Origin: Gammaproteobacteria bacterium
GTDB taxonomy: Bacteria; Pseudomonadota; Gammaproteobacteria; Steroidobacterales; Woeseiaceae
Length of the DNA stretch: 64,000 bases
Assembly: GCA_029884455.1 (NCBI GenBank)
Contig: JAOUHU010000010.1
Span: forward strand, 16,344 to 80,343
Reading direction: 5' to 3'
Shown here: positions 39,279 to 56,755 of the stretch, in pieces
How positions within the stretch are numbered: position 1 is the first letter of the stretch
Layout: each line of letters starts with the position of its first letter
Notes under the pieces: model-generated
Database searches by the model: none
What the model was told of the DNA's origin: nothing
Seen by the model: only the letters and a program-made list of their open reading frames with translations
Program-made: the position numbers and the translations under genes

Positions 39279-42200
39279 TCGCTGGCCCTCCGGATCTTCT
39301 CCGGCGGTGCCCCGAGACGCCAGAAAACTTCAGGCTCGATGAGCAGCTCATAGCAGCAGTTCTGCGCTTCCCAGGCCGTCGCGATTTGTTCTTGCAGCGC
39401 GTTGATGCGTTGCGTGACCAGCGACTCCTGCTCGACGTCCGCCACATAGGACAGCCGCAGGATTGCGGGTGCCTTGCGTAATTCGTGCAGCAGCAAGTCG
39501 ATTCGGCCCTGCCACTGGTGCCGCATCTCGGTCGTGCCGGGCTCGAACACGGCGTCGGCGATATCCAGCCCGACGACGCGATAGATCGAGGCGCCGAAGT
39601 TGATGCGCAGCGCCTTGCCGCGGGTCGCGCGCTGCACCTGCACCGGCCGCGTCGAGCTGCGGAAGCCGCTCGGCAAGGTGCGGTCATCGAGCTTCAGCAC
39701 GAAATTGCTGCCGCGGCTCTCGTTCGGCGTTATTGCGCAGGTGATGTGATAGCGGCCGTGCGCATCGGTGCTCGCAGCAAGGCCGCGCGCGGTAATTACG
39801 CGCACACCGGCGAGCCCGTCTTCGTCGCCATCCTGGTAACCGTTGCGGTTGCTGTCGTTGAAAACCTTGCCCGTGACATCGGTGCAGTCGAAGGTCGGGT
39901 CGGGCACGATGCGCACGGTGGCCTCGGCCTCCTCGGACAGCGCCGTGCCCGTAAGCGAACTCATCGCCTGCGCACGGTTGACGAATTCACCCTCGGTTAC
40001 GCCTGCGCCGACGGCCAGCAGCAGCTTGATCGTGTGCCGCCCGTCGACGAGCAGGGTCAGGTTCGACCAGACCAGTTCGCGACCCGCAACCACGGGTTCG
40101 CTCGCCACCCCGTCGAAACGTGCCGAGCCTTCGACGTAGTGGAAACCGGCCGGGTAGCGGTCGACCACGGTAATGTCACTGAGGTTGGCGCCGAAAGAAT
40201 TGCTGATCCGGATTTCGTAGGGCACCAGCTGGCCGCGGGTAACGTTCAGCATCGGCGTGGTCTTGCTGACAGCCACCGCACCACCGAGCCGCGGATCGAG
40301 CGGAATATGGTTGTTGAAAAGCTGGCTGGAACCCGGCACCTGGATATCGTTCAGCCGCAGAAACAGGTGATAGGCCGTGCCCGCACTTTGCGCCGGTACC
40401 GACGTCGGCGGCGCGAATTCGGAAGCTTGCGCCTCGCAATAATTCGGCGTTGCGAGCACTGCATCGTTGCTCGATCCGGGACAGGCCGGTACATCGAACG
40501 GCTGCGTCGTGGCATCCGAGGTCGGCGGTATGAACGCCGAGACGCCGGGCTCGTAGCTCGCATCCGGCGCCTGCACACGCAGCAGGTAGGTCGGGCCAGG
40601 CGCACAGTTCGCGTCCGAGAAATTGAGGTCGAACTTGTAATAGCCGTTGCCGACCGTGACTTGGTCCTGCTGGTTGGGATCATCGAAGCAGCTGCCGGGT
40701 ACCGGCAGGCCATTGCGAACGTCGACCATGGTTACGACGGCACCGGCGATCGGGCCGCGCGTAATGGAGTCGTAAATAACACCGTTCGGATCGACCGGCA
40801 TGTTCAGTGCCAGCAGGTTGCTGCCTTCCTGCACATCGATCTCGTCGATACGTTGCAGGCCGTCGGTAAAATCAGAGTCGGTGACACCCAGTAGCGCAGT
40901 CCGGCTGCCGGCGCCAGGCGCGCTGAAGCGCAGCGAGTAGAGATCCGTGGTGCCATAACTCGGAACCACATTGCTGAACCGGTAGTAACCGTCGACGTCC
41001 GTCAGCATTGCGCGCACCAGCAGATTGTTCTGCAACAGCTCGACGGTCCAGCCCTCAAGCGGCCGTTCCAGCCCGCCTGGCACGTCGTCGTGATCGGCGT
41101 CATGCCAGACGTAACCACTGAGCATGCCGGCATTGGGCATCGCACCGACGTCGATGGAAACGCTCGCCTCGGCAAGCTGCTGCGGGTCGTTCCAGTACAC
41201 ACGTCCGGTGTTGGTGATGGTCGTACCTTCGAGCAGGTTCGGATTGATCACTGCCTGGAAGCGCAGCACCACCGTTTCACCCGGGTTCAGCGCACCGTAC
41301 TGGTTGAAGTAATCGGCCGTGATCGTGGTGGTCGCGGCATCGTAGGTCACGCCGGCGCCCAGGCCATTCAGCGTCGCCGACAGGTCGACATAGGCAAGGT
41401 AGCCCGGATTGACCTCGTCGAGATTGTCGGTCATCGCGACGTAGTAGGCCGGCACGGCCGCGATGTTGGTGGCGGTAACCGTGTATTCGAGTGTCGCACC
41501 CGGAAGTGCCGCGCCACCGCCGACAACCGCAACCGCCTTGACGATGGACAGGGCCTGCGCATCGCCAACGACCACGACGGTCGGTTCGGGACCGGTCGCC
41601 GGATTGCCATCGCCATCGGTCAGCAGATTCGGCCGTTCAACAGAATAGACGGTCGCCTGGTTGATAATAAGAGTGCCGGTAGGCACCGCCGCGTTGACCT
41701 GCATGTCGAACTGCACCAGCGCCGACTGGCCCGGATTCAGCACGCCTGCACCATCGGCCGGCAGTGGCGGCGTGAGGTCGGCCGAGCTGACGGGAATACC
41801 CGCGATCAGCGGGAACACGCCGGCGTCCGGCTGGCCGACCGGCAGGCCATTGAGCGTCACCGAGTCGGCCACGTAGGTGAGGTCATTCGGCACGACGTCG
41901 ACCAGTTCCACCGCGGTCGCGGCTACATTGCCGTTGTTGTAAATCGTGATCGAATAGCGCAACACGTCGCCGGGATCGACAATGCCAGGCGTGCCGAGAT
42001 CGACCTGCAGCGCGGCCGACTTCGGCGCAAACAGCAGCGGATAGTTGCCGACCACGTCGCGCGTCGGATCGTCGGCCAGTGGCGTACGCGGGTCGTCTGA
42101 CGGCACATCGGCAATGCCGTAGTCAACCGCGCTGACAAAAGCCTGGTTCGAAATAATCGTGCCGTCGGGCACGTCCGGATACACGATGACATCGAAAACA

Positions 42201-45200
42201 ATCGTCGCGACGTTATCAGCCACGCCGGCGTTCAAAACTCCCGGCGTTGTGTCCTGCGGTGCGTTCACCAGGATGCCGTTGCCGAGCGGCAGGCTGCCGC
42301 CCGCAGCATCGGGCACGGCGATGCCATTAAGCGTCGTGCTGCCGGCAACGTAGCTGGTGTTGCCGGGCACCTGGTCGACAATCTCCACCCCGGTCGCGTG
42401 GTCGGTACCGATATTCTGTACCGTGATCGTGTAGCGCAGCGTCTCGCCGGCGAGCAGCACGTTTGGATCACCGTCGATATAGGACGATGTCTTTTGTACG
42501 CGGAAGGCGGGTGCCGAGGTGATCCGAACCTGGGTCGGATCCTCGTCGCCCGCAATGTTCGGGTCCGCGGCGCCGTTAACATTCGGGTCGTCGCTGACGG
42601 CCACCGGGTTGCCGTTGTACAGCAGGCTCGACTGGTTATAAACGTAACTGTCGTTGCTGATCACGGGCACCAGCACAATTTCAAACTCGACCAGCACGCT
42701 GTCGCCAAGCGGACCGAGGCTCAGATTGCGCACATCGAGCAGGCCGCTACCGGCTGCACCACCGTTCGGGTCCGTGTTGCCGGCATCCGCCCCGGCCGGC
42801 AGCGTAACGACACTCAGCGTCCCGGCCTGGAACATCGGCAATGTGTTGAGCCGATCGAGTTCATCCACCAGGCTGAAATTGGCGACTGAGCTGGCACTCG
42901 CGTTTTCGACGCGCAAACTGTAGCGCAGCGTGTCGCCCGGGCTCGCAACGCTTGCCGGATTGTCGCCACTGCTGACGTTGGCGACGGTCTTTTCGAAAAT
43001 CAGGATGGGCGTAAATTCAACCACCGTGAGCGCGTCCTCGTGGTCCAGCACGCCGACCGTGCCGTTGGTCACGGCGCGCGTGTAGGTGCGTGCATAACTC
43101 GCGTTGGCGCCCGAAAAAATATCGAGACTGAACCACTCGGTCGCGCCGGCGACATTTGTCAGCACCGCATCCGCCTGTGTATCCGCATCCAGCAGCGTGT
43201 CGTAACTAACGATCAGGCGCTGGTCGGGAGCGATGGCCGCGGCTGCTGTCAGCGCCTGCAAGGTAAATGTACAGGCCGGGTCGCCGAGCCAGCTGACCAC
43301 AAAATCGGTACCCTCGGACAACGGCGGCGCAACTGGGGTCACACCATCGGCCGCGAATAATTGTGCCGTGAAGTTCACCGGCGCCGCATCACAGGTGCCG
43401 CCGTCAGCCTGGTTCGGCAGTCGGTCGGTAATCGTCAGGCCGTGTGCTGCGGACGCACCGATGTTGTGCACGTTCAATGTGAATGTTTCCGCGACACCGA
43501 TGCGCATGTTGACCGGGCCGCCTTTTTCGAGTGTCAGCTCGGGCTCGACCACGGTCATCGGCGCACTGCTGCCGGGCAGGCCGGGTCTCTCGGTCACCGT
43601 GTCGTTGTCGGACAGGTTGTAGCTGTAGGCAGCGCTATTAATGAAAGTCAGGCCAGCAAGGTTGTTGCTGGTATCGGCAAGTCGCAACGTGATTTCGATG
43701 ACTGCCTGCTCGCCGGCCGGGATATCGATGCCATTGACCGGGTCTTCGATCACGAGGTTGTCTGGCGTCCCCGTGTTCACAGGCGTCCAATTACCGGCAG
43801 CCGAGATTTTTGTCACGCTGACGAATTCGAGATCGGCTGCCGAAGCACTGAGATCGTCGAGCAAGCGTACATCGTAGAGCGGTGAGCTGTGCGGCACGGA
43901 AGGCACAGTGACCAGGTAGCTGAATTCTTCGCCAATGGTCGCGGTGGCCTGCGTCGTCGCCTTGATGAGCGCAGTCGGTGGCGGGCCCTCGATGATGATG
44001 CGCGTCGGATCCTCATCGCCGGCGATATTCGGGTCCGCCTGGCCGTTGACGTAGGGATCGTCGCTGTCCGCTATCTTGATACCGCTGACGAGATCGGCCT
44101 GGTTGGTCACCAGGGTGCCATTCGGCAGGGTCGAGTTCAGCGTCACATCGAACTGCACCAGCACTTCGCTCGCCACCGGCAGGCTCAAGTTGCCGATGTC
44201 AAGCACGCCGGCACTGTTGGTACCGCCGTTCGGGTTGGTGCCGGACGTGTCGGCGCCAGGCGGGATCGTTGCGGCGACCAGCGTAAGGGATCCCGGTACA
44301 AACACCGGCACCGGATTCATTGCACCCAGGTCGTCGCGGAAACTGAAATTGGCGAGCGCACCATCCGTTGTCTGCAGGCGCAACGTATAACGCAGCGTAT
44401 CGCCCGGGCCAGCAGTAGTCGTCGGATTGACGCCGGTACTCAGGTTTGCGACGGTCTTTTCGAAGAAGTAGCCGCGCAGTTCGACGACGGTCGTGTGTGC
44501 GTCCTCATGGTCCGCTACGCCAGGTGTGCCGTTGGTCAGCACACGATTGAAAACAACCCGGTCCGTATTGCTGCTGTCGCCGTTAAACCATTGGCTTGCG
44601 CCGACGACGTTGGTGAGCGCGGTGCCGTCCTGGCTGTCCGCATCGAGTCTGGTCCGGTAGTTAATAACCAGGCGTTCATTGGCACCGATCGCCGCCTGCG
44701 CCGTAAGCATGGTCAGCGACAGGCGGCAGGTCGGAGCGCCGGCAAAACTGAAGGTGTAGTCGCTGCCTGCCGCGAGCGGGCCTTTGCCGGGGACCGGCGT
44801 CGTACCGTCCGCTGCAAACACCTGCGCGTCGAGGATTTCCGGGGTCGTATCGCACATGCCCCCTGTGGCGCCATTCGGCAGTTGGTCAAGCAGTGTCACA
44901 TCCCAGGCATCGGTCAGACCGGTGTTGTGAACGTTAATACCGAAGTTGCCCCACTCGCCGAGGTTGAGTGTCCGGCCGATCGTTGCCGGGCCAATCTTGG
45001 TCACTATGAGTTCCGGTGTAGCAATCGTCAGTGGCTCGGAAATACCCCACTCACCTGGCAACGGCTCGTAAAATATTCCTTCGATAAGGCGGCCGAAATC
45101 CCACTTCGCAATATTGATGAACTGGGTGCCGGGCGCGTTCGTCGGCGTGTCCTGCAGAACCACATCCAGCTCGATGATGAACTGTTCGCCGGCCGGGATA

Positions 45201-45898
45201 ATCGGAAAATTGTCGAAAGTCAGAACGCCGCCGACATTCGAAAAGGTGTGCGGTATCGGCGCGCCACTCGTTTCCCAATACGCGCGATAGCCAAGAAAAG
45301 TCAGGTCTACACCCGTTGCATTCAGATCGTCGACGATCGTAATGCCGTGCAGATTATTCACAGAGCCCTGCGTATTGATTACAGTCGTCGTTGCCGGATC
45401 AAACAACACCGGGCTGGTCAGCGACCAGGTAAACGGCACGCCGATCGCAGCGGTGGTCTGGCCGGGCGGATTTTGCTTGTCAATCTTTTCAACCGGAATC
45501 AGCAGGTTCTGGCAATTTGCCTGGATCGTCGATGACGAACCGTTCGTGAACCAGATCTTGTGTTCGAGCACGGCGTTACAGGACATCTGCCCGGTGTGCA
45601 CGACGTTATCGAAAATGATCAGCCAGCGTTCATTGGTTTGCCCGGGCCTCGTGAAAAACGAGAAGTTCGTGGTCAACGGATTGCTGGCCGGAAAATTGCG
45701 CACCGTGCAATTGGTATCGATGTTTATGTTCGACGGCGGATTGGGTGTGACGAAGCCATCGAGCGTAGCGTTTGGAAACGTCGAGCAGTCGGTGGCCTGA
45801 GCGTTCGCCGTGGCCGCCGCGAACAGCAATGTGATCGCAGCCAGCAGGCGCACGCATGTGGTACCCAAGCGGAGATTTCTATTGCTGATAAGACCCAT
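39275..45898 (-). CDS. Giant secreted DUF11-repeat / SdrD-B-like domain protein
   Basis: 2207 aa, signal peptide; repeated GDTLRYTL...NxGxxxAxxVxLxDxLP modules; SGYVWHDADHDDVPGGLERPLEGWTVELLQN; ATGA overlap with 34131-39278. Confidence 0.8.
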   Translation of the reverse strand: MGLISNRNLRLGTTCVRLLAAITLLFAAATANAQATDCSTFPNATLDGFVTPNPPSNINIDTNCTVRNFPASNPLTTNFSFFTRPGQTNERWLIIFDNVVHTGQMSCNAVLEHKIWFTNGSSSTIQANCQNLLIPVEKIDKQNPPGQTTAAIGVPFTWSLTSPVLFDPATTTVINTQGSVNNLHGITIVDDLNATGVDLTFLGYRAYWETSGAPIPHTFSNVGGVLTFDNFPIIPAGEQFIIELDVVLQDTPTNAPGTQFINIAKWDFGRLIEGIFYEPLPGEWGISEPLTIATPELIVTKIGPATIGRTLNLGEWGNFGINVHNTGLTDAWDVTLLDQLPNGATGGMCDTTPEILDAQVFAADGTTPVPGKGPLAAGSDYTFSFAGAPTCRLSLTMLTAQAAIGANERLVINYRTRLDADSQDGTALTNVVGASQWFNGDSSNTDRVVFNRVLTNGTPGVADHEDAHTTVVELRGYFFEKTVANLSTGVNPTTTAGPGDTLRYTLRLQTTDGALANFSFRDDLGAMNPVPVFVPGSLTLVAATIPPGADTSGTNPNGGTNSAGVLDIGNLSLPVASEVLVQFDVTLNSTLPNGTLVTNQADLVSGIKIADSDDPYVNGQADPNIAGDEDPTRIIIEGPPPTALIKATTQATATIGEEFSYLVTVPSVPHSSPLYDVRLLDDLSASAADLEFVSVTKISAAGNWTPVNTGTPDNLVIEDPVNGIDIPAGEQAVIEITLRLADTSNNLAGLTFINSAAYSYNLSDNDTVTERPGLPGSSAPMTVVEPELTLEKGGPVNMRIGVAETFTLNVHNIGASAAHGLTITDRLPNQADGGTCDAAPVNFTAQLFAADGVTPVAPPLSEGTDFVVSWLGDPACTFTLQALTAAAAIAPDQRLIVSYDTLLDADTQADAVLTNVAGATEWFSLDIFSGANASYARTYTRAVTNGTVGVLDHEDALTVVEFTPILIFEKTVANVSSGDNPASVASPGDTLRYSLRVENASASSVANFSLVDELDRLNTLPMFQAGTLSVVTLPAGADAGNTDPNGGAAGSGLLDVRNLSLGPLGDSVLVEFEIVLVPVISNDSYVYNQSSLLYNGNPVAVSDDPNVNGAADPNIAGDEDPTQVRITSAPAFRVQKTSSYIDGDPNVLLAGETLRYTITVQNIGTDHATGVEIVDQVPGNTSYVAGSTTLNGIAVPDAAGGSLPLGNGILVNAPQDTTPGVLNAGVADNVATIVFDVIVYPDVPDGTIISNQAFVSAVDYGIADVPSDDPRTPLADDPTRDVVGNYPLLFAPKSAALQVDLGTPGIVDPGDVLRYSITIYNNGNVAATAVELVDVVPNDLTYVADSVTLNGLPVGQPDAGVFPLIAGIPVSSADLTPPLPADGAGVLNPGQSALVQFDMQVNAAVPTGTLIINQATVYSVERPNLLTDGDGNPATGPEPTVVVVGDAQALSIVKAVAVVGGGAALPGATLEYTVTATNIAAVPAYYVAMTDNLDEVNPGYLAYVDLSATLNGLGAGVTYDAATTTITADYFNQYGALNPGETVVLRFQAVINPNLLEGTTITNTGRVYWNDPQQLAEASVSIDVGAMPNAGMLSGYVWHDADHDDVPGGLERPLEGWTVELLQNNLLVRAMLTDVDGYYRFSNVVPSYGTTDLYSLRFSAPGAGSRTALLGVTDSDFTDGLQRIDEIDVQEGSNLLALNMPVDPNGVIYDSITRGPIAGAVVTMVDVRNGLPVPGSCFDDPNQQDQVTVGNGYYKFDLNFSDANCAPGPTYLLRVQAPDASYEPGVSAFIPPTSDATTQPFDVPACPGSSNDAVLATPNYCEAQASEFAPPTSVPAQSAGTAYHLFLRLNDIQVPGSSQLFNNHIPLDPRLGGAVAVSKTTPMLNVTRGQLVPYEIRISNSFGANLSDITVVDRYPAGFHYVEGSARFDGVASEPVVAGRELVWSNLTLLVDGRHTIKLLLAVGAGVTEGEFVNRAQAMSSLTGTALSEEAEATVRIVPDPTFDCTDVTGKVFNDSNRNGYQDGDEDGLAGVRVITARGLAASTDAHGRYHITCAITPNESRGSNFVLKLDDRTLPSGFRSSTRPVQVQRATRGKALRINFGASIYRVVGLDIADAVFEPGTTEMRHQWQGRIDLLLHELRKAPAILRLSYVADVEQESLVTQRINALQEQIATAWEAQNCCYELLIEPEVFWRLGAPPEKIRRASE

Positions 45899-45964: not shown

Positions 45965-45969
45965 TCGAG

Positions 45970-46050
45970 CGGTCCCGCTGCCATAAGGCGCCCATCCTTT
46001 TAGGCCGGTGACTTTGCGTCACTGTCTTTCGACAGCTTTGCCTTTGTCAG
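45970..46050 (-). ncRNA. Cyclic di-GMP-I (GEMM) riboswitch aptamer
   Basis: Minus strand GACAAAGGCAAAGCTGTCGAAAGACAGTGACGCAAAGTCACCGGCCTAAAAGGATGGGCGCCTTATGGCAGCGGGACCGC: GAAA tetraloop, ACGCAAAG core, CCTAA receptor, GGcAGCgGG signature. Confidence 0.92.
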
Positions 46051-46269
46051 AATCCAGACAGAACTATCGCTCATCAGCCGTGAGACGTGGGGGACCTGCA
46101 TCACAATTTGTGCGGTCGTTACCCATGCCCCAAACGCTTGGGCAAGACCCCGCCGTTATTGGAACAGGCGCCCGCAGCCGGCGGTGAAACCACCGCCCGG
46201 CAGGCCCTTATGTCAATAAAAATCCGGCCGACGCGGACAGCGTCTGCCTTATGTAACAACGGCTTTGAA

Positions 46270-47673
46270 TCAGGCCGCAGGCAGGAAATCGATCGGATAA
46301 ATAATCGTCACGGCCACGATGTTTTCTTTCGCGCCGAAGTCGAAACTGCGCACGCGATCGACTACCTGGTCCGCGAGCATCGGCGCATCCATGCTGGATG
46401 CATAGAGCTTGCAGAGCGACACGCTGCCATCGGGTTCTATGGTCAACTGCAGCACGAGTTGTCCGCGCAAGGTCGGATCGTTGCGCAGCTCACGGTTATA
46501 CAGCCGATACAAGGCGGCCTTGTAGCGGTCGAACACAATCTGGATTTCCTCGTCTGTGCGCCCAGCCGACGCACCGCTACTCAGCGGCCGATCGGGGCCA
46601 TCGCCGCCGCCAATGTTGCTGGCCACGCGTGAAACGGCAACGCCATCCATGCCACCACCCCCGCCGCCAAAGTCGCGGCTGAAGTCGGCGAGATTGATGC
46701 CGCCACTGCTGCCCGGCGCCGAAGTCGTGACCATCATGCGTTCCGGCCTGCCGGTGGCGTTTTCGCCGGCATTGCTGAGACGCGCCTGGGAACCGAGCTG
46801 TGCCGACGGACGCAGTTCGGCGCGGCTTGCGAAACTGTCGCGAAAGGCGAGCAGACCCTTGGTCTTAACCTGTTCACGCGTATCCGGCTGCTCGGCCTCA
46901 GCCAGCACCGGTTGTTCATCCTGCACCGGAGACGGCTGCGGCTCGGCTTCGGCGACCAGTTCCGGTTCAGGCTCGGGAAGCTCGTCGGGTATTTCCGGCT
47001 CCGGTTGAGTCACGGGAGGCGGTGGTGGTGGCAGGCGCTCCTCGCGCACCAGCCTGGCAACGCGCTCCGGCAACTGGGCATCTTCGGGCCGGTTCATGAT
47101 TGGCACCGCAATAACACTCAGCAGGAAAGCAAATGCCAGCGACGCCGCCAGCGAACTGAGCAGGGACCGATTCAGGCGGCGATCTTCTTCAGCGCCGCGC
47201 GTCCAGGGCATTATCTGCGCGTGGTACGGAATTTCCGGTTCGTCGCGCTCAGGCACCCATTCGCTATTACGATTTTCCTGCTGTTCGATAATGTCCTGCA
47301 GATCGTAATGCAGGTAGTCGAGTTGACTGTTCTGCGCGCCAATTTTTTCAATAATTGACTCGCGCCTGGCTTCGACGCGCTCGATTTCGCGGCCGTATTG
47401 GTCGAACTGATCACGCGCATACTCGATGCGTTCGGCCTGCACCACGCTGCTGCCGTCCTCTTTCCAGAACAGCGCCGCAGCTCCGAGCCGTTCCAGTTCT
47501 TCGAGAGAGGAACAAATTGACGCCAGCAATTCGTAGCGCGGGTGCAGCGCTGCCAGTTGCTCGAGCTCAGCATCGACAGTTCGAAGCTCGCGCTCGAGAG
47601 TATCCAGCGTCCGTTCCGACTGCTCGACTTTCTCTCTTAACGACTGTTCGTGTGCCGATGAATCAGAGCTCAC
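46270..47673 (-). CDS. AgmX/PglI C-terminal (TonB-like) energy transducer with long N-terminal coiled coil
   Basis: 467 aa: coiled coil, single TM SLLSSLAASLAFAFLLSVIAVPI, Pro-rich PPPPPPVTQPEPE, C-terminal LRGQLVLQLTIEPDGSVSLCKLYASS. Confidence 0.8.
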   Translation of the reverse strand: MSSDSSAHEQSLREKVEQSERTLDTLERELRTVDAELEQLAALHPRYELLASICSSLEELERLGAAALFWKEDGSSVVQAERIEYARDQFDQYGREIERVEARRESIIEKIGAQNSQLDYLHYDLQDIIEQQENRNSEWVPERDEPEIPYHAQIMPWTRGAEEDRRLNRSLLSSLAASLAFAFLLSVIAVPIMNRPEDAQLPERVARLVREERLPPPPPPVTQPEPEIPDELPEPEPELVAEAEPQPSPVQDEQPVLAEAEQPDTREQVKTKGLLAFRDSFASRAELRPSAQLGSQARLSNAGENATGRPERMMVTTSAPGSSGGINLADFSRDFGGGGGGMDGVAVSRVASNIGGGDGPDRPLSSGASAGRTDEEIQIVFDRYKAALYRLYNRELRNDPTLRGQLVLQLTIEPDGSVSLCKLYASSMDAPMLADQVVDRVRSFDFGAKENIVAVTIIYPIDFLPAA

Positions 47674-47697
47674 AATTTCACCTTCATCCTTGGGGTG

Positions 47698-48201
47698 TTA
47701 GCGCGCTGCAACCTGTGCCGGTATCTGGATAACGGCGAGCGAGACATTCTCGTAGCCCTCGCCCGTACAGGCCGACATGATTTTCCGGACAACAACAAAT
47801 GGCACTGACTTGTCTGCGAGGATTGTCACCTCCTGGCTTTCCGCAACCGCCATTGTGTTCGGCCCGATTACACTTTCCTTCAAATCAGCGAGCCGTGATG
47901 CAAGCGAATCCATTGTGTTCTGCTTGTCTTCCAATATGTCGGCAACGCGTGCTACAACCTTGCCTTGTACCATGACGTCCTCCGGGCTAACCGAAATGAT
48001 CACGGTTTCGCGCGGTTTCGATTCTTCCCGGGACTCAGGTAGTGACACATCCTTCGGCGCATCCAGCAATTCCACTGATCCGGTATTCACTAGCAGGAAA
48101 AAAACGAGAATCGTGAACACGTCCATCAGCGACGTCAGATTCATTTTTGAAATCTTCAGCCGGTTGCGGGACATACGTTTGATGCGGCGTGTATTTCTCA
48201 T
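47698..48201 (-). CDS. ExbD/TolR-family protein (Asp retained)
   Basis: TM motif MNLTSLMDVFTILVFFLLV. Confidence 0.85.
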   Translation of the reverse strand: MRNTRRIKRMSRNRLKISKMNLTSLMDVFTILVFFLLVNTGSVELLDAPKDVSLPESREESKPRETVIISVSPEDVMVQGKVVARVADILEDKQNTMDSLASRLADLKESVIGPNTMAVAESQEVTILADKSVPFVVVRKIMSACTGEGYENVSLAVIQIPAQVAAR

Positions 48202-48704
48202 GGCGCATCTCCGACGGAAATTTCGGAAAACAGTGCGACCAGTTCGAAGCTCGGCTCACCGTCCAACGGCATTTCGACCGGCCTTTCGACAGCCCGGACA
48301 ATATCCATGACCTGAATCAGGTAATCGTAGGGTATGCGTGCCTCCATTAGCACGGACGCAGCATCCTGCTGCGGATAGGTCTGCTTCAGCTCCACCATGT
48401 AGTCGGACAAGGTCTGTAAATCGTATTCCTCGTCTTTGTTTGGAATCGCGGCGATAACCGACTCGCCGTTTGTAATCTCGATCCGGTTTTCGCGCACGAT
48501 GACTTCCGGTGTAAAACCCTGTTCGCCGTTGGACGGTCCACCGGCCGAACTGGGCAGGTTTAATTCAACAATAGTGAGGCGCGAAAATACGGCTGTAATG
48601 AGCAGGAACGGCACTAGCACCACCATGAGATTGAGGAAGGTGGTGACATCAATTTCGTGCGCGCCGCTCTTGGTGCGCCGCTTGTAATGGTGACGCCGGG
48701 CCAT
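48198..48704 (-). CDS. ExbD/TolR-family protein (Asp replaced by Asn)
   Basis: TM motif EIDVTTFLNLMVVLVPFLLITAVF; ATGA overlap with 47698-48201. Confidence 0.8.
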   Translation of the reverse strand: MARRHHYKRRTKSGAHEIDVTTFLNLMVVLVPFLLITAVFSRLTIVELNLPSSAGGPSNGEQGFTPEVIVRENRIEITNGESVIAAIPNKDEEYDLQTLSDYMVELKQTYPQQDAASVLMEARIPYDYLIQVMDIVRAVERPVEMPLDGEPSFELVALFSEISVGDAP

Positions 48705-48709
48705 TGCGA

Positions 48710-49366
48710 TCAGGCCTCAGCCGCTGACATTCTCTTGGCGCGCCTCGAAAACACGTTCAGGGCTTTGACCGAGGCCATCTCGAGACTGTCAACGATATCG
48801 CCGGTCTTGCTGGTCAGAATCGCGTGCACAATCAAGAGCGGTATTGCGACCATGAGGCCAAACGCCGTAGTGTTCATAGCGACGGAAATACTGGCGGACA
48901 GCAGGTCTGCTTTTTCCGCCGGGTTGGCGTTCGCCACTGCTGTAAACGCCTGGATCAGGCCCATGATCGTACCGAGCAGGCCGAGCAAGGTCGCGATGCT
49001 GGAGGCAAGCGCCACGTAGCCAGTACGCTTTTCCAGGCGCGGTACGATTTCCATCATGCTTTCTTCCATCGCAATTTCGATATCTTCGCGGCGGCGTACG
49101 GCACCCTGCAGCGACAAGCCCATGTTAAGCACTTGTGAAATTGTTGAGTCGTCTTTACTGGTCATCTCGCGTGCAGTGTCGAACTCTCCGTTTGCGAGCA
49201 GTGGCTGCACTTTGTCCCAGATCAGGCGATTCTTGTTGGTCACAAGCGTCAACGTTATGTAGCGCTCTGCCGCAATCGCGACGCCTACTGCGAACACCAG
49301 CAGGATCGGATACATGAACAGGCCACCAGATCCGAAGAAAGCGACAACCGAGTAGAAAAGGTCCAT
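48710..49366 (-). CDS. MotA/TolQ/ExbB proton-channel protein
   Basis: LGLLGTIMGLIQAFTAV...AISVAMNTTAFGLMVAIPLLIVHAIL-type motifs. Confidence 0.92.
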   Translation of the reverse strand: MDLFYSVVAFFGSGGLFMYPILLVFAVGVAIAAERYITLTLVTNKNRLIWDKVQPLLANGEFDTAREMTSKDDSTISQVLNMGLSLQGAVRRREDIEIAMEESMMEIVPRLEKRTGYVALASSIATLLGLLGTIMGLIQAFTAVANANPAEKADLLSASISVAMNTTAFGLMVAIPLLIVHAILTSKTGDIVDSLEMASVKALNVFSRRAKRMSAAEA

Positions 49367-49507
49367 TGGTCTATCCTCAATTTGACAAAATGTCGGGGCT
49401 ATTTCCGCGACGTAGCCAAGAATAGACGCCCATCCCGGGCTTGGATGTGATGCAGTCCACGTTCGGCCATTATGTCCGAGAAAATTGGCCTGCCATCGCG
49501 ACGCGAC

Positions 49508-49810
49508 TCACTCGCCGGAGCGGATTTCGTAATAGTTCAGCTCGCGCAGGAAGACTTCCTTGTCGACCGGTTGCGCACGATCATCGAGCGACTCCGTGAG
49601 GCTGATATCATCGCCGAGTTCCGATGACTTCCACGGTACGATGACCAGTGATTTGGGCGCTTCCTCATTACCGAGAATCGACATGCCGGAAAGCGTCTTT
49701 GGCGAATTGATGCCATCGCCGTCGGCCACCTGTTCCTGAGCAGCAGGTTCCTCGGCCTGCACGCCGCAGCCAAGCAGCAACAGCGCCAGCCCGCCAATCA
49801 GTCTGTTCAT
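49508..49810 (-). CDS. Small exported protein of motor operon
   Basis: Likely start MNRLIGGLALLLLGCGVQAEE (lipobox-like LLGC); ORF extends to 49858. Confidence 0.6.
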   Translation of the reverse strand: MNRLIGGLALLLLGCGVQAEEPAAQEQVADGDGINSPKTLSGMSILGNEEAPKSLVIVPWKSSELGDDISLTESLDDRAQPVDKEVFLRELNYYEIRSGE

Positions 49811-50460
49811 CGCTGCTCCTCCCGCTGATTCAGGCGGTACTGCAGGTCCTTGATCCACATTGACGCCTCGTCATCGCTCGGCACGGTCGTCATGTAAGCC
49901 TGGTAGTTCTGTAAAGCGCAATCGAGGTCCGCAAGATACAGATCGCAGAGCACGGCCAGGTTGCGCCGCGCATAGTGATAACCCGGGTACACGGCGAGTG
50001 CCGCTTCGTAATTGCTCCTGGCTTCTCTGAAACGGCCGGTCTTGCGCAGCACAATGCCGAGCTCATTGTTGGCGATCGGGTGACTGGGATTATTCTCCAG
50101 CGCCAGCCGCAGGTTGCGTTCTGCCTGCACGAGATCGCCTGCGCGGTGGTAAGCAATGCCGAGGTCGATGCGTGGCGCACTGAGCTCTGGTGTTGCGTCG
50201 GCAACCGCTTGCAACAGGCGAATTCCCTCCTGCTGGTTGCCACGCTCGAGCTCGCTCACTGCCTGCTCGTAGTCGAGCCGGGTGTCATCGCCAACCCTGG
50301 CGTCCTCGGTAATCGTGAATCCGATTTGCTCCTGGATTTCAATATGCGCGACAGCCGGTTTCGACCGGGGAACGCTGGACGCACAAGCCGCAATGAAAAA
50401 TGCGCCGACGGACAGCGTTGCCAGGTTGCGCCAGTGAATAATTGCCAGCCTTGTCATCAT
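49807..50460 (-). CDS. TPR lipoprotein
   Basis: SVGAFFIAACASS lipobox; TPRs AYHRAGDLVQAERNLRLALENNPSHPIANNELG. Confidence 0.8.
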   Translation of the reverse strand: MMTRLAIIHWRNLATLSVGAFFIAACASSVPRSKPAVAHIEIQEQIGFTITEDARVGDDTRLDYEQAVSELERGNQQEGIRLLQAVADATPELSAPRIDLGIAYHRAGDLVQAERNLRLALENNPSHPIANNELGIVLRKTGRFREARSNYEAALAVYPGYHYARRNLAVLCDLYLADLDCALQNYQAYMTTVPSDDEASMWIKDLQYRLNQREEQR

Positions 50461-50475
50461 GTCTGCCTCCGCCGC

Positions 50476-53400
50476 CTACTCGACACCGCGTGGCGGTGTC
50501 GTGGAAAGCTGCGCCGTTGCCTCAGGTAAGACTTCCGGCGGTGCGATCGGCATGCGATAGGCGTAACTGTCAATCGACCCCAGGTAGCCGCCGCTGATTT
50601 CATTTTTCGCGTAGCGACCCGGCATGACCAGCGCCAGCTTGTCGAGACTTTTCTGAATCCAGGGATTGAACAAACCACCCGCCAGCAGCTCGAAATTCTT
50701 TTCGTGCACGGCGATGCCTTGTTCTTCGAAGGGATACGCCTCTTCCTCGAGCACCAGGTCGTAGTCGACTTTCTCCGCCGCGCTCAGACCGTCCGGGCGT
50801 TCTGAATTGAGCAGTGCTGTGCTGAAATTAAAATAAACCTCGGCAATGTAATAGGTTGCTGCCGCGGTCACCTCCGCAACCTGGTAATTGACCAGCTCCT
50901 CGAGGTGCGCCATCGCCACATCCATGCGCCGCTGCTTCTCTGCGAGGCTCTGCTCGAACGGCTGCGTGAGCGCCAATCTCGCGAATTCCTGGTACTGCAA
51001 CTCGGCCAGCACCAGCGCTGCCTTGGCGGCCAGATAACGGCTGCGATCGGTACGCTCGGCACCAGCGTCACGATCGACAGACACAATGCCGGCCAGCGCT
51101 TCGTGGTAGCGCTCGTAATCCGATTGTTGCTTGAAAATCTCGGCGAGCCGGGAGCGCGTTTCGAGTGCAACGTCAATGGGTTTTGGATATTCGCTGACGT
51201 ATTGTTCGTAGACGCGAATCGCATCGGCAACCGCTTCCGCCTCGTCATAAAGATCGCCCGCAATCAGTAATGCACTGCGCGCGATCTCGGCATCCGTGGC
51301 TTCCGCAGCGATGCGTTCGTGCTCAGCGGCTGCGCGTTTCGTCTGGCCATCTTCACGATAGACATTCGCGAGCTGCTTGGTCGCCTCGGTCGCCAGTTCG
51401 TGCTCCGGGTGCGAGCTTCTGAATTCTTCCAGCACGTTCGAAGCAAAGGTCCAGTCCTTGAGCCTGATCAACGCCGCGGCGGCGTCGTATTCCGCTGCCG
51501 TACGGATGTTCGAGGTTGGCGCGACTTCCTTGATGCGCAGGAAGTGCTGCGCGGCAAGGCCATAGTCTTCGAGCAGATTTGCCTGCTCACCCTGCTTGTA
51601 GATCGCTGCGGCGAGCCCGTCGACCACGGCAGCACGCTTGTCGTCATCTGCCGGAGTCAGCGACAGGACGTTCGCGTAGGCCTGCTCGGCATCGGTAAAC
51701 TCGTTCAGATCCATCGACGAGTTGGCGACCACGGCCCAGGCCGAGCGCTTGAGCTCCCTGTCGGCGGACGGGTAACGCGCGATGAGTTTTCTCGCCGCAT
51801 CGATCGCCAAAGGCAGATCCTTCATCTCGTAGAGATCGTCTGCCGCGTGACCGAGCACAGTGGCTGCCTGTTCATGCTCCGGGAAGGTATCGGCAAATCG
51901 CAGCGAGCTGTCCACCGTCAGCCGTTTGACATCACGCTGCAACGCACCACTGGCAACCTTGAGATGTTCGCGATGCGAGTAAATGGCCGCATAGCCGGCG
52001 GCGGCTGCCTGTGCATGCGCCGCGTAATTGTAGGCGGTACGCTCATATTCGACCGCCGCTTCACCGAAATTCTCGTTTTCGAGCAGCAGGTCGGCGAGCT
52101 GGTAATTGATCTGCGGCGTTGCACTATCGGCCGGAAACGACCCCAGGTATTGCCGGTACCAGCGTTGTGCCTCGCTGAAATTAGCTGGCCGTTCATCGAC
52201 CAGGGACGCTTCCTGGTACAGGGCATGGTAATGGCCGGCCAGGTCCGTCAGGTTGACCTTCAGGAAGCCAACCACCTCAGGCGATTCAGCCGCATCGAAG
52301 TGGTTCCAGTACTCGGCATCGAGCGCATAGGTAGCCGCAAATTGTTTTTTCGCCTCGACCACGAGTAACGGGAACCCGGCTTCGGCGTATATCTCGACGA
52401 CCCGCATGCCGAAGTGCGGTGATACCTTGTGCAGGGGATTCAACGCGACAAACGATTTGTAAACCGATGCCGCATCTTCATAGCGCAGCTTGCTGAAGTA
52501 GAACTCGCCGAGATTGCCGTAGATTTTGTCCGCGTAGCTGCGCCGCCCATAACGCGCAAAATAGTCGTCGACCACCTCCGGTCCGCCGAGATTGGAGAAA
52601 CTCAGACTGATAACGCGGAACGTATCGGCGAGCCGGTGTTCGTCATCCTCCTGCTCAACTTCGTCAAAGTCATAGCCGATTGACAGCCGGTAATCGAGCA
52701 TCGCAATGAATTGGCGCAGGCCCTCCTCGTAGAGTTCCTGCTTGTACAGCGACCAGCCCAGTTTGTAGAGCGCAAGCTCATGATAGCTCGAGGTCGGCCC
52801 CAACCTGATAACCGCAGCATAGGCATCTTCGGCGTTGAGGTATTGCCGGCGTACAAAATAGTACTCGCCGCGCCGGAAATGGACTTCATCCAGATGTTTC
52901 GAATACGGACTCGTACTGATCAGGCGGTCCATGACCTGCATGGCCTGATCCGGCTCGCCTATCTCGTCATAGGCGCGCGATAACTGGTAAAGCACCTGGT
53001 CGTTACGCTCGTAATTTGGATAGCTCTCAAGAATCTGCCAGTACATCTTGATCGCTTCACGCGGCCCCGCCGGTGCCGTAACGACTTCGCCGCCCGGCAA
53101 CGGTGCCGCAAAGTCGTCCGCATTGGACAGCAGGCGCTCGCGCGCAGTGGCGCGGGCCTCGAATTCCTGTTCCGATTCCGTCGACCCGGGTTGCTGCGTA
53201 TTGCTCTTCTCCGCGAGTATGCGCCCACCCGTCGTTGCCGCTTCCGGGGCAGCCATTTCGACAATCGCACCGTTGCCAATCACACCGTAGGCCTGCTCGA
53301 GCTGCAGGTCCGCCAGTCGTCGCATGGCCTCGGGCGTCATGCCGCTCTCACTGGTCTCGTCAAGATACCGGCGGTAACTTTCTGCGGCGCGTTCAAGACT

Positions 53401-53535
53401 GTCCGCAACGTAAATTTCATCAATATCGGCCGGCACCGCATCAAGCTCGGCAAGCGTGCCCGAGCGATCACCGCCGCTGGCGCAGCCGAACAATCCGGCA
53501 CTGCAAAGCAACAATCCGATGCAATTGCGCCTCAT
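50476..53535 (-). CDS. Large TPR outer-envelope lipoprotein
   Basis: 1019 aa; lipobox LLLCSAGLFGCASG; many TPR-like helices. Confidence 0.8.
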   Translation of the reverse strand: MRRNCIGLLLCSAGLFGCASGGDRSGTLAELDAVPADIDEIYVADSLERAAESYRRYLDETSESGMTPEAMRRLADLQLEQAYGVIGNGAIVEMAAPEAATTGGRILAEKSNTQQPGSTESEQEFEARATARERLLSNADDFAAPLPGGEVVTAPAGPREAIKMYWQILESYPNYERNDQVLYQLSRAYDEIGEPDQAMQVMDRLISTSPYSKHLDEVHFRRGEYYFVRRQYLNAEDAYAAVIRLGPTSSYHELALYKLGWSLYKQELYEEGLRQFIAMLDYRLSIGYDFDEVEQEDDEHRLADTFRVISLSFSNLGGPEVVDDYFARYGRRSYADKIYGNLGEFYFSKLRYEDAASVYKSFVALNPLHKVSPHFGMRVVEIYAEAGFPLLVVEAKKQFAATYALDAEYWNHFDAAESPEVVGFLKVNLTDLAGHYHALYQEASLVDERPANFSEAQRWYRQYLGSFPADSATPQINYQLADLLLENENFGEAAVEYERTAYNYAAHAQAAAAGYAAIYSHREHLKVASGALQRDVKRLTVDSSLRFADTFPEHEQAATVLGHAADDLYEMKDLPLAIDAARKLIARYPSADRELKRSAWAVVANSSMDLNEFTDAEQAYANVLSLTPADDDKRAAVVDGLAAAIYKQGEQANLLEDYGLAAQHFLRIKEVAPTSNIRTAAEYDAAAALIRLKDWTFASNVLEEFRSSHPEHELATEATKQLANVYREDGQTKRAAAEHERIAAEATDAEIARSALLIAGDLYDEAEAVADAIRVYEQYVSEYPKPIDVALETRSRLAEIFKQQSDYERYHEALAGIVSVDRDAGAERTDRSRYLAAKAALVLAELQYQEFARLALTQPFEQSLAEKQRRMDVAMAHLEELVNYQVAEVTAAATYYIAEVYFNFSTALLNSERPDGLSAAEKVDYDLVLEEEAYPFEEQGIAVHEKNFELLAGGLFNPWIQKSLDKLALVMPGRYAKNEISGGYLGSIDSYAYRMPIAPPEVLPEATAQLSTTPPRGVE

Positions 53536-55415
53536 GGCTCAAGACTCCTTGCCTGCGCCTGCGTCGCACGGTCATAACTGTCAGCCAGCGCGAAGCGCGC
53601 CTTGTCACCATAGCGCTCCAGCCGCGACCGCCGTGCCACCAGTTCCTCAACAGCAACGAGCTCCAGCAGGTGTCCCTGGCGTGCCATCAAGATCTGTATC
53701 ACCTGCGTTGCCTCGGCAACCTTGCTGCGCAGTACCCGGATTGGCATTTCGTAACCGTTATAACTGTGCTCGGCCGCCTGGCGCGTGCGCACATACTCGT
53801 CGTATTTCTGTTGCGCCACTGCCATGGCTGCATCTAGTTCACGGAGATTCTGATCGAAGCGCGTCAGGCGCTCGTGGTATTCGGTCTGCAGCGTCCAGAA
53901 CAGCAGACCCTTGAGGCGGGCGACGCGTTGCAAAGTGGACGGCGCAGCGCCCGAAGGCGAAGCCTGCAACTGTTCTTCAATAAGCTCGAGGCGCGCAAGG
54001 ATCTGTTGCTCCTCGCGAGTCGCAAGGAATTCGGGCCGCGGCGTGGTCAACAGGTCATCACGCTTTTTCACCAGCATCTTGTGCTGCTCAACACGCAGCC
54101 GCATGCGCGAGTCGAATTCACGGAACTCGCTGTCTACCTCTGGCAATAGCGGCTCGTAATGATCGTGGCGAATCGCAACCATTTCGTCATAGGCATCGAA
54201 ATCGGTTTGCCAGCTTTTCAGCTTGCGCTGCAGGTCCGCGAGATCGAGGTAATTCTGCAGGCCCGCCTGGAAATCGTGCGAAGCGAGCAATTCCATCAGG
54301 TAGTAGGTTTCGGGCGCGTTTTCCAGCGAGCGCAGCCGAATGACCCAGTTTTTGTCCTGGCGGATCTCTTCGCGAATCAACGCCTCGAGAAACGCGCCGT
54401 CGCGAATGCTGTCGATCGACAGGTTGAGCTTGTCGATCTCGACCCCGTAGGCGTCCAGTGCATGCCCGTAGGAGATCGCCGCACGACCGTGGACATTGAG
54501 TTCGCCGTAGGCATACGGCAGTGCCAGCAGTGCCTCCTGTGTGCCGCTATCTGTAACTTCACGCCCGGCGAGGATGCTCCACGGAACGACCGCCCGTTCG
54601 GCTCGCCCAAGTGACATGTTTGCCCAGCCCGAGCTAAGCAGCGCCTGGTTGGAAAACGGTCCGTCAAGGCGCACGCGGTTCAGGTATGGTATCGCCGCAT
54701 CCAATTTGCCTTCTTCGAGCAACAGGGTGCCGAGCACCAGGTTGGACTTGTCGACGATCGCCAGGTCGGCCGGGTCTGCGCTTGTAATGCGTCCGGCCTT
54801 GTCGAGCTGCTCGATGGCCTGTTGTTGCCGGCCATCCTGCAAGTAGGCGATACCGAGGTTGTAACTGGCGAACGCACCAAAACCATCGGATTTCTCGAGC
54901 TTGCCCAGCACTTGCGCAGCATCAGCGGGCCGGCCCTGCGCGAGATAAATGTTGGCCCGCAAAAACTCGATGTCGTCGCGGATCGACGCCGGCACTTCGC
55001 CGTCGATGCGATCGAGAGCGCGCAACGCATCGTCGGCCTGGCTCTTCTGAAAGTGAATCCGCGCCAGGCGGTATGCGGCGTCGTTGCGCACCACTTCATC
55101 GACGGCGCCCTCGAGGACAGCCGTGATGGCCCTGCCCGCGCGGTGGTGCATGCGGTAACGAAGCTCGAAGTCGCCGAGCGAGAATTCTGCATCGTTGATG
55201 TAGGCGTACAGCGTGTCGAGCTGCGGCTCGTCAATGTTGCCATGCTGCCTGACTTCGCTGTCGAGCCGTTGCAATGCTTCGAAGTATTGCCCCTGGTGCG
55301 CGTAATACAGCGCCTCGCCGAAGTAGAGGTCCTTCAGCTCAGCGGCAAAACCAGGGCTTGTTGCCAGACCAGCAAGCAGCAGGAGCCCGGTTCCGGAGAA
55401 CGGTGCTCGACCCAT
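53532..55415 (-). CDS. Exported TPR/coiled-coil protein
   Basis: 627 aa; signal peptide; LGIAYLQDGRQQQAIEQLDKA; ATGA overlap with 50476-53535. Confidence 0.78.
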   Translation of the reverse strand: MGRAPFSGTGLLLLAGLATSPGFAAELKDLYFGEALYYAHQGQYFEALQRLDSEVRQHGNIDEPQLDTLYAYINDAEFSLGDFELRYRMHHRAGRAITAVLEGAVDEVVRNDAAYRLARIHFQKSQADDALRALDRIDGEVPASIRDDIEFLRANIYLAQGRPADAAQVLGKLEKSDGFGAFASYNLGIAYLQDGRQQQAIEQLDKAGRITSADPADLAIVDKSNLVLGTLLLEEGKLDAAIPYLNRVRLDGPFSNQALLSSGWANMSLGRAERAVVPWSILAGREVTDSGTQEALLALPYAYGELNVHGRAAISYGHALDAYGVEIDKLNLSIDSIRDGAFLEALIREEIRQDKNWVIRLRSLENAPETYYLMELLASHDFQAGLQNYLDLADLQRKLKSWQTDFDAYDEMVAIRHDHYEPLLPEVDSEFREFDSRMRLRVEQHKMLVKKRDDLLTTPRPEFLATREEQQILARLELIEEQLQASPSGAAPSTLQRVARLKGLLFWTLQTEYHERLTRFDQNLRELDAAMAVAQQKYDEYVRTRQAAEHSYNGYEMPIRVLRSKVAEATQVIQILMARQGHLLELVAVEELVARRSRLERYGDKARFALADSYDRATQAQARSLEP

Positions 55416-55418
55416 AGA

Positions 55419-55949
55419 TTACCAATCCCCAACCTGGATAACGTCTTTACCAAGTCCCGGTGCCGCGAGGGCAATTCCGAGTGTCTTGGGAGTGGCGCCT
55501 TTCGAGAACGAATAGCTGCCGGACTCGCTGAAATCCTTGCCATTGGCAAGCTTGCCCAGCATCGTGACCCGAAGTTCATGCGCACCGGTGGTGATATTGC
55601 CGGTGTAAGCGCGCTGCACACCGCCTTTGTGCAAGGCCTCAAGTTCCTGAAAGCTGTATATATGATGTGTCGCGAGCTGGCCGTTGATTTCAATCTTCAC
55701 GGCATCGAGTCGAAAATCCTCGTCGTCGGCAACGGAAATAAACACCGCGACTTGCGTATTCGACGGGAACAGCAGGCGCTCCTCGAGATTCCCGAGTTCG
55801 GCAGCGATATCAAGCACGTCCGACTTTATTTCCTGCACCTGGCCATCCAGGCTCTTCATGTCGTTGCCGGATAATTGCTCGGCACCGATCGTTACCGAAA
55901 CTCCACAGACGATCAGCAGGGATACTAGAATTTGGCTGCAATAACGCAT
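55419..55949 (-). CDS. Exported conserved hypothetical protein of motor operon
   Basis: 176 aa; signal peptide, short coiled coil then beta-rich domain AVKIEINGQLATHHIYSF; same strand, 3 nt from next gene. Confidence 0.65.
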   Translation of the reverse strand: MRYCSQILVSLLIVCGVSVTIGAEQLSGNDMKSLDGQVQEIKSDVLDIAAELGNLEERLLFPSNTQVAVFISVADDEDFRLDAVKIEINGQLATHHIYSFQELEALHKGGVQRAYTGNITTGAHELRVTMLGKLANGKDFSESGSYSFSKGATPKTLGIALAAPGLGKDVIQVGDW

Positions 55950-56104: not shown

Positions 56105-56755
56105 GTGGCTCTTATGCTGACCTGGATTCTTTCAACTCTGCGTGATTTTGGCGCAGCAGTGCACGATGCCTATACCCTGCCGGGCCGGGTTGCGTTATCA
56201 CTGCTGGTCACGCATGCGCCCGGAATTGCAGCCTGGCTGAATATTGACGGCGGCGAAACTCCGGTGCTGATGACGTTTTTGCTGTCCCTAGTCTATTGGT
56301 TCCTCGTCATCGTTCTGCTGGTATATGTCGTACGGCTGTGCCGCGATATCACCCGGTATGTCAATTCCCTGCTGCGGACCGGCCTCTACCACGCGTCGCA
56401 TTTGCTTGCCGCTATCAAGACTAGGACGGTTCTCAGCTTGCGCGGCCTGTTCCCGCGACGGCGACGGCTGCGGGCAAAGGACGACGCACCTCCGATGATC
56501 GAGTTCGACAAACTGGATATGGCGGTGCTGCGCTCGGTGTCGGCGAAAGGGCCCGGCTTTGCGCTGGCGGCTCCGGACCTTGCCGACCGATTCAAACTAC
56601 GGCCTTCGCAGGTACAGCGCAGTCTCGATAAACTCAGCTACAGCAAGATGCTGGTCAGCGTCATTGGCAACACCGACGGTTATGAAAATTACCGGCTCAC
56701 GGATTACGGTCATGCCTATGTTGCAATGTTGCTGCGGCAGTCATCGCGCGCCTGA
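56105..56755 (+). CDS. Membrane protein with C-terminal winged-helix-like domain
   Basis: Two hydrophobic segments then basic linker and LAAPDLADRFKLRPSQVQRSLDKLSYSKMLVS...YRLTDYGHAYV (wHTH pattern). Confidence 0.6.
   Translation: MALMLTWILSTLRDFGAAVHDAYTLPGRVALSLLVTHAPGIAAWLNIDGGETPVLMTFLLSLVYWFLVIVLLVYVVRLCRDITRYVNSLLRTGLYHASHLLAAIKTRTVLSLRGLFPRRRRLRAKDDAPPMIEFDKLDMAVLRSVSAKGPGFALAAPDLADRFKLRPSQVQRSLDKLSYSKMLVSVIGNTDGYENYRLTDYGHAYVAMLLRQSSRA

Follow-up and report, generated by a model that had tools for sequence, protein, structure and literature searches.

A gammaproteobacterial Agl/Glt-type motor operon linked to a giant adhesin-like protein and its predicted outer-membrane anchor

Introduction

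What does the Agl/Glt core complex of Gammaproteobacteria act upon? The genes gltC, gltD, gltE and gltG together with aglR, aglQ and aglS make up this complex in a single gammaproteobacterial locus (Luciano et al. 2011, PMC3169522), and it has been described as a standalone basal transport machine whose specialisation is proposed to follow its cargo (Wartel et al. 2013, PMC3858216). In Gammaproteobacteria it has been without a known cargo since 2011, and the literature that we searched contained no later functional study of it. Here we analysed a 64,000-nucleotide (nt) stretch of DNA (the window; GenBank assembly GCA_029884455.1, contig JAOUHU010000010.1, positions 16,344 to 80,343) from a Woeseiaceae-type metagenome-assembled genome (MAG) of 3.3 Mb and 89% completeness (G000), in which a nine-gene motor operon of this type stands directly beside a pair of giant genes. 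While the core complex itself is already known, the tie between one of its families and a giant adhesin, an anchor and, in one clade, a cyclic di-GMP (c-di-GMP) riboswitch is reported here, and we did not find a core-complex family with such dedicated partners in the open-access literature searched. On balance we favour the view that motor and giants form one proton-powered, c-di-GMP-tuned trans-envelope machine for moving or presenting a giant surface adhesin.

Results

A core-complex operon beside two giant genes

The motor operon consists of nine open reading frames (ORFs), whose coordinates and strand were rechecked, between 46270 and 55949; it is followed by a riboswitch aptamer and the giant pair.

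55419-55949, minus strand: ExpB (our own label), exported protein of 176 amino acids (aa), first gene of the motor operon
53532-55415, minus strand: gene in the GltC position, exported tetratricopeptide repeat (TPR) and coiled-coil protein, 627 aa
50476-53535, minus strand: gene in the GltD position, TPR lipoprotein, 1019 aa, lipobox LFGC read from the sequence
49807-50460, minus strand: gene in the GltE position, TPR lipoprotein, 217 aa
49508-49810, minus strand: small exported protein, possible lipoprotein, conserved in its position between gltE and exbB
48710-49366, minus strand: AglR-like ExbB/TolQ proton channel subunit (PF01618, 1e-26)
48198-48704, minus strand: ExbD/TolR subunit 1 (ExbD1; 1e-13), with Asn (N25) at the proton-carrying Asp position
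47698-48201, minus strand: ExbD/TolR subunit 2 (ExbD2; 1.7e-16), Asp (D27) retained
46270-47673, minus strand: GltG-like TonB-type transducer, 467 aa, with an AgmX/PglI C-terminal domain
45965-46052, minus strand: c-di-GMP-I riboswitch aptamer, ahead of the giant pair
39275-45898, minus strand: giant exoprotein, 2207 aa, with DUF11 repeats, an isopeptide-forming fimbrial domain and SdrD_B domains
34131-39278, minus strand: giant anchor, 1715 aa, with N-terminal OmpA peptidoglycan-binding domains and a predicted very large outer-membrane beta-barrel

By gene content and order, the window operon is a gammaproteobacterial Agl/Glt core complex plus two small genes. All seven members, aglR, aglQ, aglS, gltC, gltD, gltE and gltG, are clustered in the locus, and their order is that of Marinobacter loci, with which GltD shares 27-29% identity over ~80% of its length and ExbB 56% (one locus). 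The identical nine-gene order recurs in dozens of genomes, far beyond chance. The names GltC, GltD and GltE denote position and homology to gammaproteobacterial loci, not a direct comparison with the Myxococcus xanthus proteins. The transducer scores 55.3 bits against the AgmX/PglI domain model NF033768 (cut-off 40), which is also matched in 16 of the 16 homologues from type A, type B (both defined below) and Marinobacter-group loci. The NCBIfam equivalog models of the Myxococcus Glt proteins score well below their cut-offs (29 of 450 bits for GltC, 36 of 225 for GltE, 31 of 650 for GltG and 32 of 450 for GltJ); they match mainly shared TPR and tail domains, GltJ mainly via its tail domain. 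None of gltA, gltB, gltF, gltH, gltI, gltJ and gltK is evident in the gene table of the locus, where A, B, F, H, I and K were sought without a model search. When GltG and GltC were compared by sequence with solved structures, the only matches were chance or generic TPR ones.

An earlier note, made from the DNA alone, had proposed an Agl/Glt-like operon of nine tightly packed minus-strand genes. The identification is borne out by the published gene set and the Marinobacter order. The coordinates and strand hold as well, and the domain calls, namely TPR proteins, ExbB, two ExbDs and an AgmX/PglI-type TonB-like protein, agree with the profile matches. TPR repeats were found in three ORFs (49807-50460, 50476-53535 and 53532-55415). 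The genes are not "largely overlapping", however: only a minority of junctions overlap, the clear cases, each of 4 nt, being 48198/48201, 53532/53535 and the junction of the giant exoprotein and anchor genes. The exported beta-rich protein of the note is ExpB, for which structure prediction gave a signal helix, a coiled-coil helix and a beta-sandwich; a fold search against the PDB gave no match below 1e-3, and the protein is kept in type A, type B and Marinobacter loci. The small lipoprotein gene holds as a small exported gene, but its lipobox is weak and, listed as 49508-49858, it probably starts at 49810. The gammaproteobacterial complex, published as one of unknown function, has also been reported to carry an extra gene that Myxococcales lack (PMC3169522).

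The named public relatives of the 1019-aa protein are mainly from Woeseiaceae and from MAGs of unclassified Gammaproteobacteria. A divergent gene on the plus strand (56105-56755), which has hydrophobic segments and a winged-helix-like C-terminus, adjoins type-B operons in 18 fetched loci (some of them the same genome twice) and is a candidate regulator. The motor-giant cluster lies farther along the contig that holds the EF-Tu/EF-G/rpoC/rpoB region, where two EF-Tu genes on the same strand (5275-6465 and 21834-23024) flank EF-G, rpoC and rpoB in an ordinary layout.

Two copies of the complex

Duplication of the core complex within one genome has been noted before, with Marinobacter named (PMC3169522). 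The genome of the window has exactly two loci above the AgmX/PglI cut-off, the window operon, which we call type B, and a second one (G000:C130), type A, whose GltD is 43% identical to that of the window; both types have the nine-gene order. Type A is present in most relatives examined and type B in 24 of 60, counting matches at ~58% identity or more and including fragments at contig edges. In the GltD tree all 49 type-B rows fall on one side of a branch with a support of 100, and type B is, on this tree, a monophyletic family. Its GltG has ~160 extra N-terminal cytosolic residues, coiled-coil-like, which type A and Marinobacter lack.

Type A loci have no giants, and the first seven scanned have no riboswitch. 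The type A complex (G000:C130:99000-118999, L021; L022-L040) adjoins genes for a TlpA-like thioredoxin and an ApbE flavin transferase in most relatives, and DUF3570 and SH3/outer-membrane-barrel genes in some; possibly these neighbours are a different outer-membrane client for the same chassis. Type-B complexes with ~51-56% GltD identity were also seen in MAGs labelled Deltaproteobacteria, Eisenbacteria and Myxococcota (L109, L123, L131, L133), either by transfer or by mis-binning.

Linkage of motor and giants

The strongest evidence that the motor belongs with the giants is adjacency, which outweighs the co-occurrence counts. In all 29 distinct loci with 2 kb or more of downstream sequence, a giant ORF begins on the same strand within 1 kb of gltG, and seven more genomes from other families agree (G077 and G368, in single contigs, G195, G358, G159, G375 and G144), giving 36 of 36. 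The exoprotein, which reaches 4370 aa in G358 and a maximum of 5022 aa in G195, is followed by a ~1,715-aa OmpA-domain/barrel protein in type-B loci where this can be read. In an apparent exception, G021, the contig stops after only 1.4 kb, which hold an opposing ORF; the giants of this genome lie on another contig. Tandem duplicated giant pairs occur in G018 (L064:12897-14363) and G034 (L076), the second pair of G018 having its own riboswitch.

Among the 60 relatives, with the OmpA giant counted at ~58% identity or more, 22 have both type B and the giant, 2 type B only, 2 the giant only and 34 neither (Fisher p = 4.8e-12); in one of the two motor-only genomes, G035, the start of the giant is present at the contig end. 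Of 321 evenly drawn Gammaproteobacteria, 11 have type B, 11 the anchor barrel and 10 both (10/1/1/309; p = 4.3e-17), at thresholds (GltD 45% identity or more over nearly full length, anchor barrel 44% or more) that were set after the data had been seen and with a narrow gap, type A GltD reaching 43%. Five of the 321 have a barrel at 40-43% and no type B. Both p-values overstate independence because the genomes share ancestry.

The two parts also appear to have evolved together. Across 17 genomes having type A, type B and the giant, type-B GltD and anchor distances are correlated (r = 0.90; partial correlation 0.89 given type A distances; permutation p 0.0005). Distances within the genus and to other families are 0.32 and 0.73 for type A, 0.45 and 0.50 for type B, and 0.39 and 0.42 for the anchor. 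Type A therefore separates families while type B and the anchor hardly do, so that motor and giants appear to move between families jointly.

The earlier note had suggested that motor and giants may be one system. The idea withstood the neighbourhood analysis set beforehand as its test: motor and giants were adjacent and co-oriented wherever contigs allow, co-occurring and co-evolving, and homology was not confined to plain TonB siderophore systems. That account came without the published core complex, the second genomic copy lacking giants, and the restriction of the riboswitch to a single clade, narrower than the older link between motor and giants.

Could motor and giants nonetheless be chance or co-regulated neighbours with no shared function? 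A paralogous type A motor does exist without giants, but giants accompany type B in 10 of 11 genomes across the class and the distance correlation holds after control for relatedness; this explanation was already disfavoured and seems to us very improbable. Scarcely better placed is the idea that the cargo of the core complex is of the envelope or exopolymer kind, the giants being a matrix protein made alongside. Such a role would resemble that of Agl-Nfs, which moves spore-coat polymer in Myxococcus (PMC3858216), but the strict adjacency and co-transfer of the motor with the giants speak against it.

The giant exoprotein and its anchor

The N-terminus of the exoprotein is variable (51-81% of loci align to its first 300 residues, ~100% beyond), a pattern to be expected if an adhesin keeps its stalk and anchor end conserved. 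The anchor carries two or more OmpA domains; its C-terminal region is predicted to form a long antiparallel beta-structure of more than thirty strands (pLDDT 74, pTM 0.66). Foldseek aligned this region to outer-membrane barrels at low TM-scores, SprA being among the weak matches (0.11-0.22). The model supports a very large outer-membrane barrel but not a particular number of strands. Elsewhere, the C-terminal part of the exoprotein and the OmpA-barrel are fused in one ORF, from which we argue that the pair acts together; no core complex lies within the stretches read at these loci. Another giant in the window genome (G000:C135, L170), of ~1,950 aa and with OmpA and barrel similarity, has no core complex beside it within the 20 kb read. 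The notion that the giants are specific to the motor was narrowed, since barrel relatives at 27-43% identity stand without type B.

The size of the barrel raises the main rival to a motor that moves the adhesin, namely a secretion system in which the motor would power the passage of the giant through it, for export or for assembly at the surface. The 4-nt overlap of the giant and barrel genes and the presence of SprA among the Foldseek matches would fit such a role, as would the GldLM-type motor of Bacteroidota, where energisation is shared in that it powers both type 9 secretion and gliding (PMC12635249). Yet the TM-scores to SprA are low, no search having been made for type 9 components (Gld proteins included), and the fused DUF11-OmpA-barrel proteins that lie away from any motor imply that display need not require one. 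We regard export as rather unlikely, though it deserves to be taken seriously.

A further reading is TonB-like uptake: a substrate, for example a polysaccharide, would be captured by the giant and imported by the barrel, with the motor providing the power. A TonB-type transducer with ExbB and ExbD is indeed present, and in Fibrobacter succinogenes a TPR-TPR/ExbB/ExbD/ExbD/TonB cluster (FSU_2397-2403) that rises on cellulose has been read as uptake (PMC6851124). The domain search of our anchor, however, gave neither a plug domain nor a TonB-dependent-receptor match, the tonB, exbB and exbD equivalog scores fall below their cut-offs, and peptidoglycan-binding OmpA domains with DUF11 stalks fit anchoring better. 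Plain TonB-ExbBD siderophore uptake was rejected as the leading explanation on the same scores and the same lack of a receptor or plug domain, and uptake in the broader sense appears improbable.

The Fibrobacter cluster may also be read in another way. Luciano et al. list F. succinogenes among the carriers of the core complex (PMC3169522), and a fibro-slime protein was reported to form a complex with the TPR protein of the cluster and the OmpA protein encoded nearby (PMC6851124). We infer that FSU_2397-2403 is a core complex, in which case it would be an independent hint to the mechanism.

Cyclic di-GMP riboswitches

The aptamer between gltG and the giant pair scores 72.7 bits against RF01051 (gathering score 35), in agreement with the riboswitch-controlled giant pair of the earlier note. 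A model built from these riboswitches was applied to the 43 distinct type-B loci with at least 450 bp of downstream sequence, and in 33 of them it detected one that separates gltG from the giant; among the other ten, some offer very little sequence. In G046 a second riboswitch lies 76 nt ahead of the first gene of the motor operon, with a third further upstream; motor operon and giants thus each have their own, in support of one system. The riboswitch of the giant pair is restricted to a Woeseiaceae-like clade, to judge from the loci compared, and the motor-giant link is older. We accordingly dropped the riboswitch as a defining mark of the system, since it is absent in deeper branches.

In some type A operons (G037, G050, G052, G039) the first core gene is preceded, at a distance of ~0.7 kb or 7 kb, by c-di-GMP-I riboswitches (L035:5792-5877, L039:5653-5737, L187:3268-3350, L188:6015-6099, L189:4388-4471). 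Riboswitch pairs ~150 nt apart occur at other loci of G059 and G046 (L190:5315-5646, L191:5526-5852), and one of them precedes a 731-aa lipoprotein-like ORF.

An asymmetric ExbD pair

We compared the proton-carrying helix position among loci of type A, type B and the Marinobacter group. All 88 ExbD2 sequences show Asp there, and 88 of the 89 ExbD1 sequences show Asn. In M. xanthus, AglQ and AglS are both described with Asp (PMC9389320), and the AglQ substitution D28N abolishes proton conductance (PMC3858216). A heteromeric axle with a single protonatable Asp subunit, ExbD2, is therefore plausible.

Discussion

Our results suggest how the parts of this locus could work together. The ExbB ring and two different ExbDs, all seen in the sequence, would constitute an inner-membrane motor. 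In this family, motors drive TonB-like transducers that contact outer-membrane partners (PMC5349195), and in Myxococcus, where surface cargo is carried by the Agl motor, AglR is in contact with GltG (PMC3169522, PMC3858216). By analogy, the window motor may drive GltG as a TonB-like rod making cyclic contacts across the cell wall, both in the periplasm and at the level of the outer membrane, with GltC, GltD, GltE and ExpB. Judging from co-inheritance, these contacts would act on the giant OmpA-barrel protein, which would grip peptidoglycan with its OmpA domains, sit in the outer membrane with its very large barrel and carry the DUF11/SdrD-like exoprotein at the surface. Motor strokes might then move, extend, tension or release the adhesin, allowing attachment to, or movement on, sediment particles; the work done would be movement, extension or presentation of the exoprotein, with the OmpA giant as partner. 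In the Woeseiaceae-like clade, c-di-GMP would set the amount of giant adhesin and anchor through the observed aptamer, in either direction.

Contact between GltG or the TPR proteins and the giants is suggested by co-inheritance, and the exoprotein is probably adhesive, as read from its domain type. Against the proposal, barrel relatives at 27-43% identity, several of them fused to DUF11, are found where there is no type-B motor, which means that barrel and adhesin can function as a unit by themselves. The riboswitch, too, is absent in deeper type-B branches, so that it is probably a later addition.

More tentatively, and as a possibility to which we would not commit ourselves, type-B complexes may be a distinct, horizontally mobile proteobacterial adhesion or motility machine, in which an Asp/Asn ExbD motor drives an OmpA-barrel-anchored giant adhesin along or through the outer membrane, with c-di-GMP RNA control in one clade. 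With one core-complex family linked to an adhesin-like giant, an anchor and, in some members, a c-di-GMP switch, its function becomes open to direct tests. Since Woeseiaceae are abundant sediment bacteria, a powered adhesin could be relevant to the way in which they cling to particles or travel over them.

Comparison with known systems

The closest known system is the gammaproteobacterial core complex, which shares the gene set and for which duplicated copies per genome were already known (PMC3169522, PMC3858216). It was described as standing alone, whereas the type-B paralogue of the window comes with a giant exoprotein, its OmpA-barrel anchor and, in one clade, riboswitches, and its GltG has an extra cytosolic coiled-coil domain. 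The Agl-Glt machinery of M. xanthus is similar in its two ExbD-type subunits, TonB-like GltG and TPR proteins GltC, GltD and GltE, but both of its ExbD-type subunits carry Asp (PMC9389320) and ExbD1 of the window carries Asn. The best match to its CglB adhesin in the window genome, at 89% completeness, has 17 bits against a cut-off of 200. Another motor of the MotAB/ExbBD type, SiiAB, is paired with a giant adhesin as well. SiiAB is a proton channel serving a type I secretion system (PMC12204202), whereas in the window TPR proteins belong to the core complex and the anchor is an OmpA-barrel protein. Finally, GldLM/type 9 secretion and SprB gliding in Bacteroidota are alike in outline rather than by demonstrated homology, with a proton ring motor, an outer-membrane barrel and a giant surface adhesin (PMC12635249, PMC9389320). 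In the window a TonB-like transducer and TPR proteins would replace the GldM-type shaft and the GldK track. If our proposal is true, this asymmetric-ExbD adhesin machine would be the proteobacterial counterpart to the SprB gliding of Bacteroidota.

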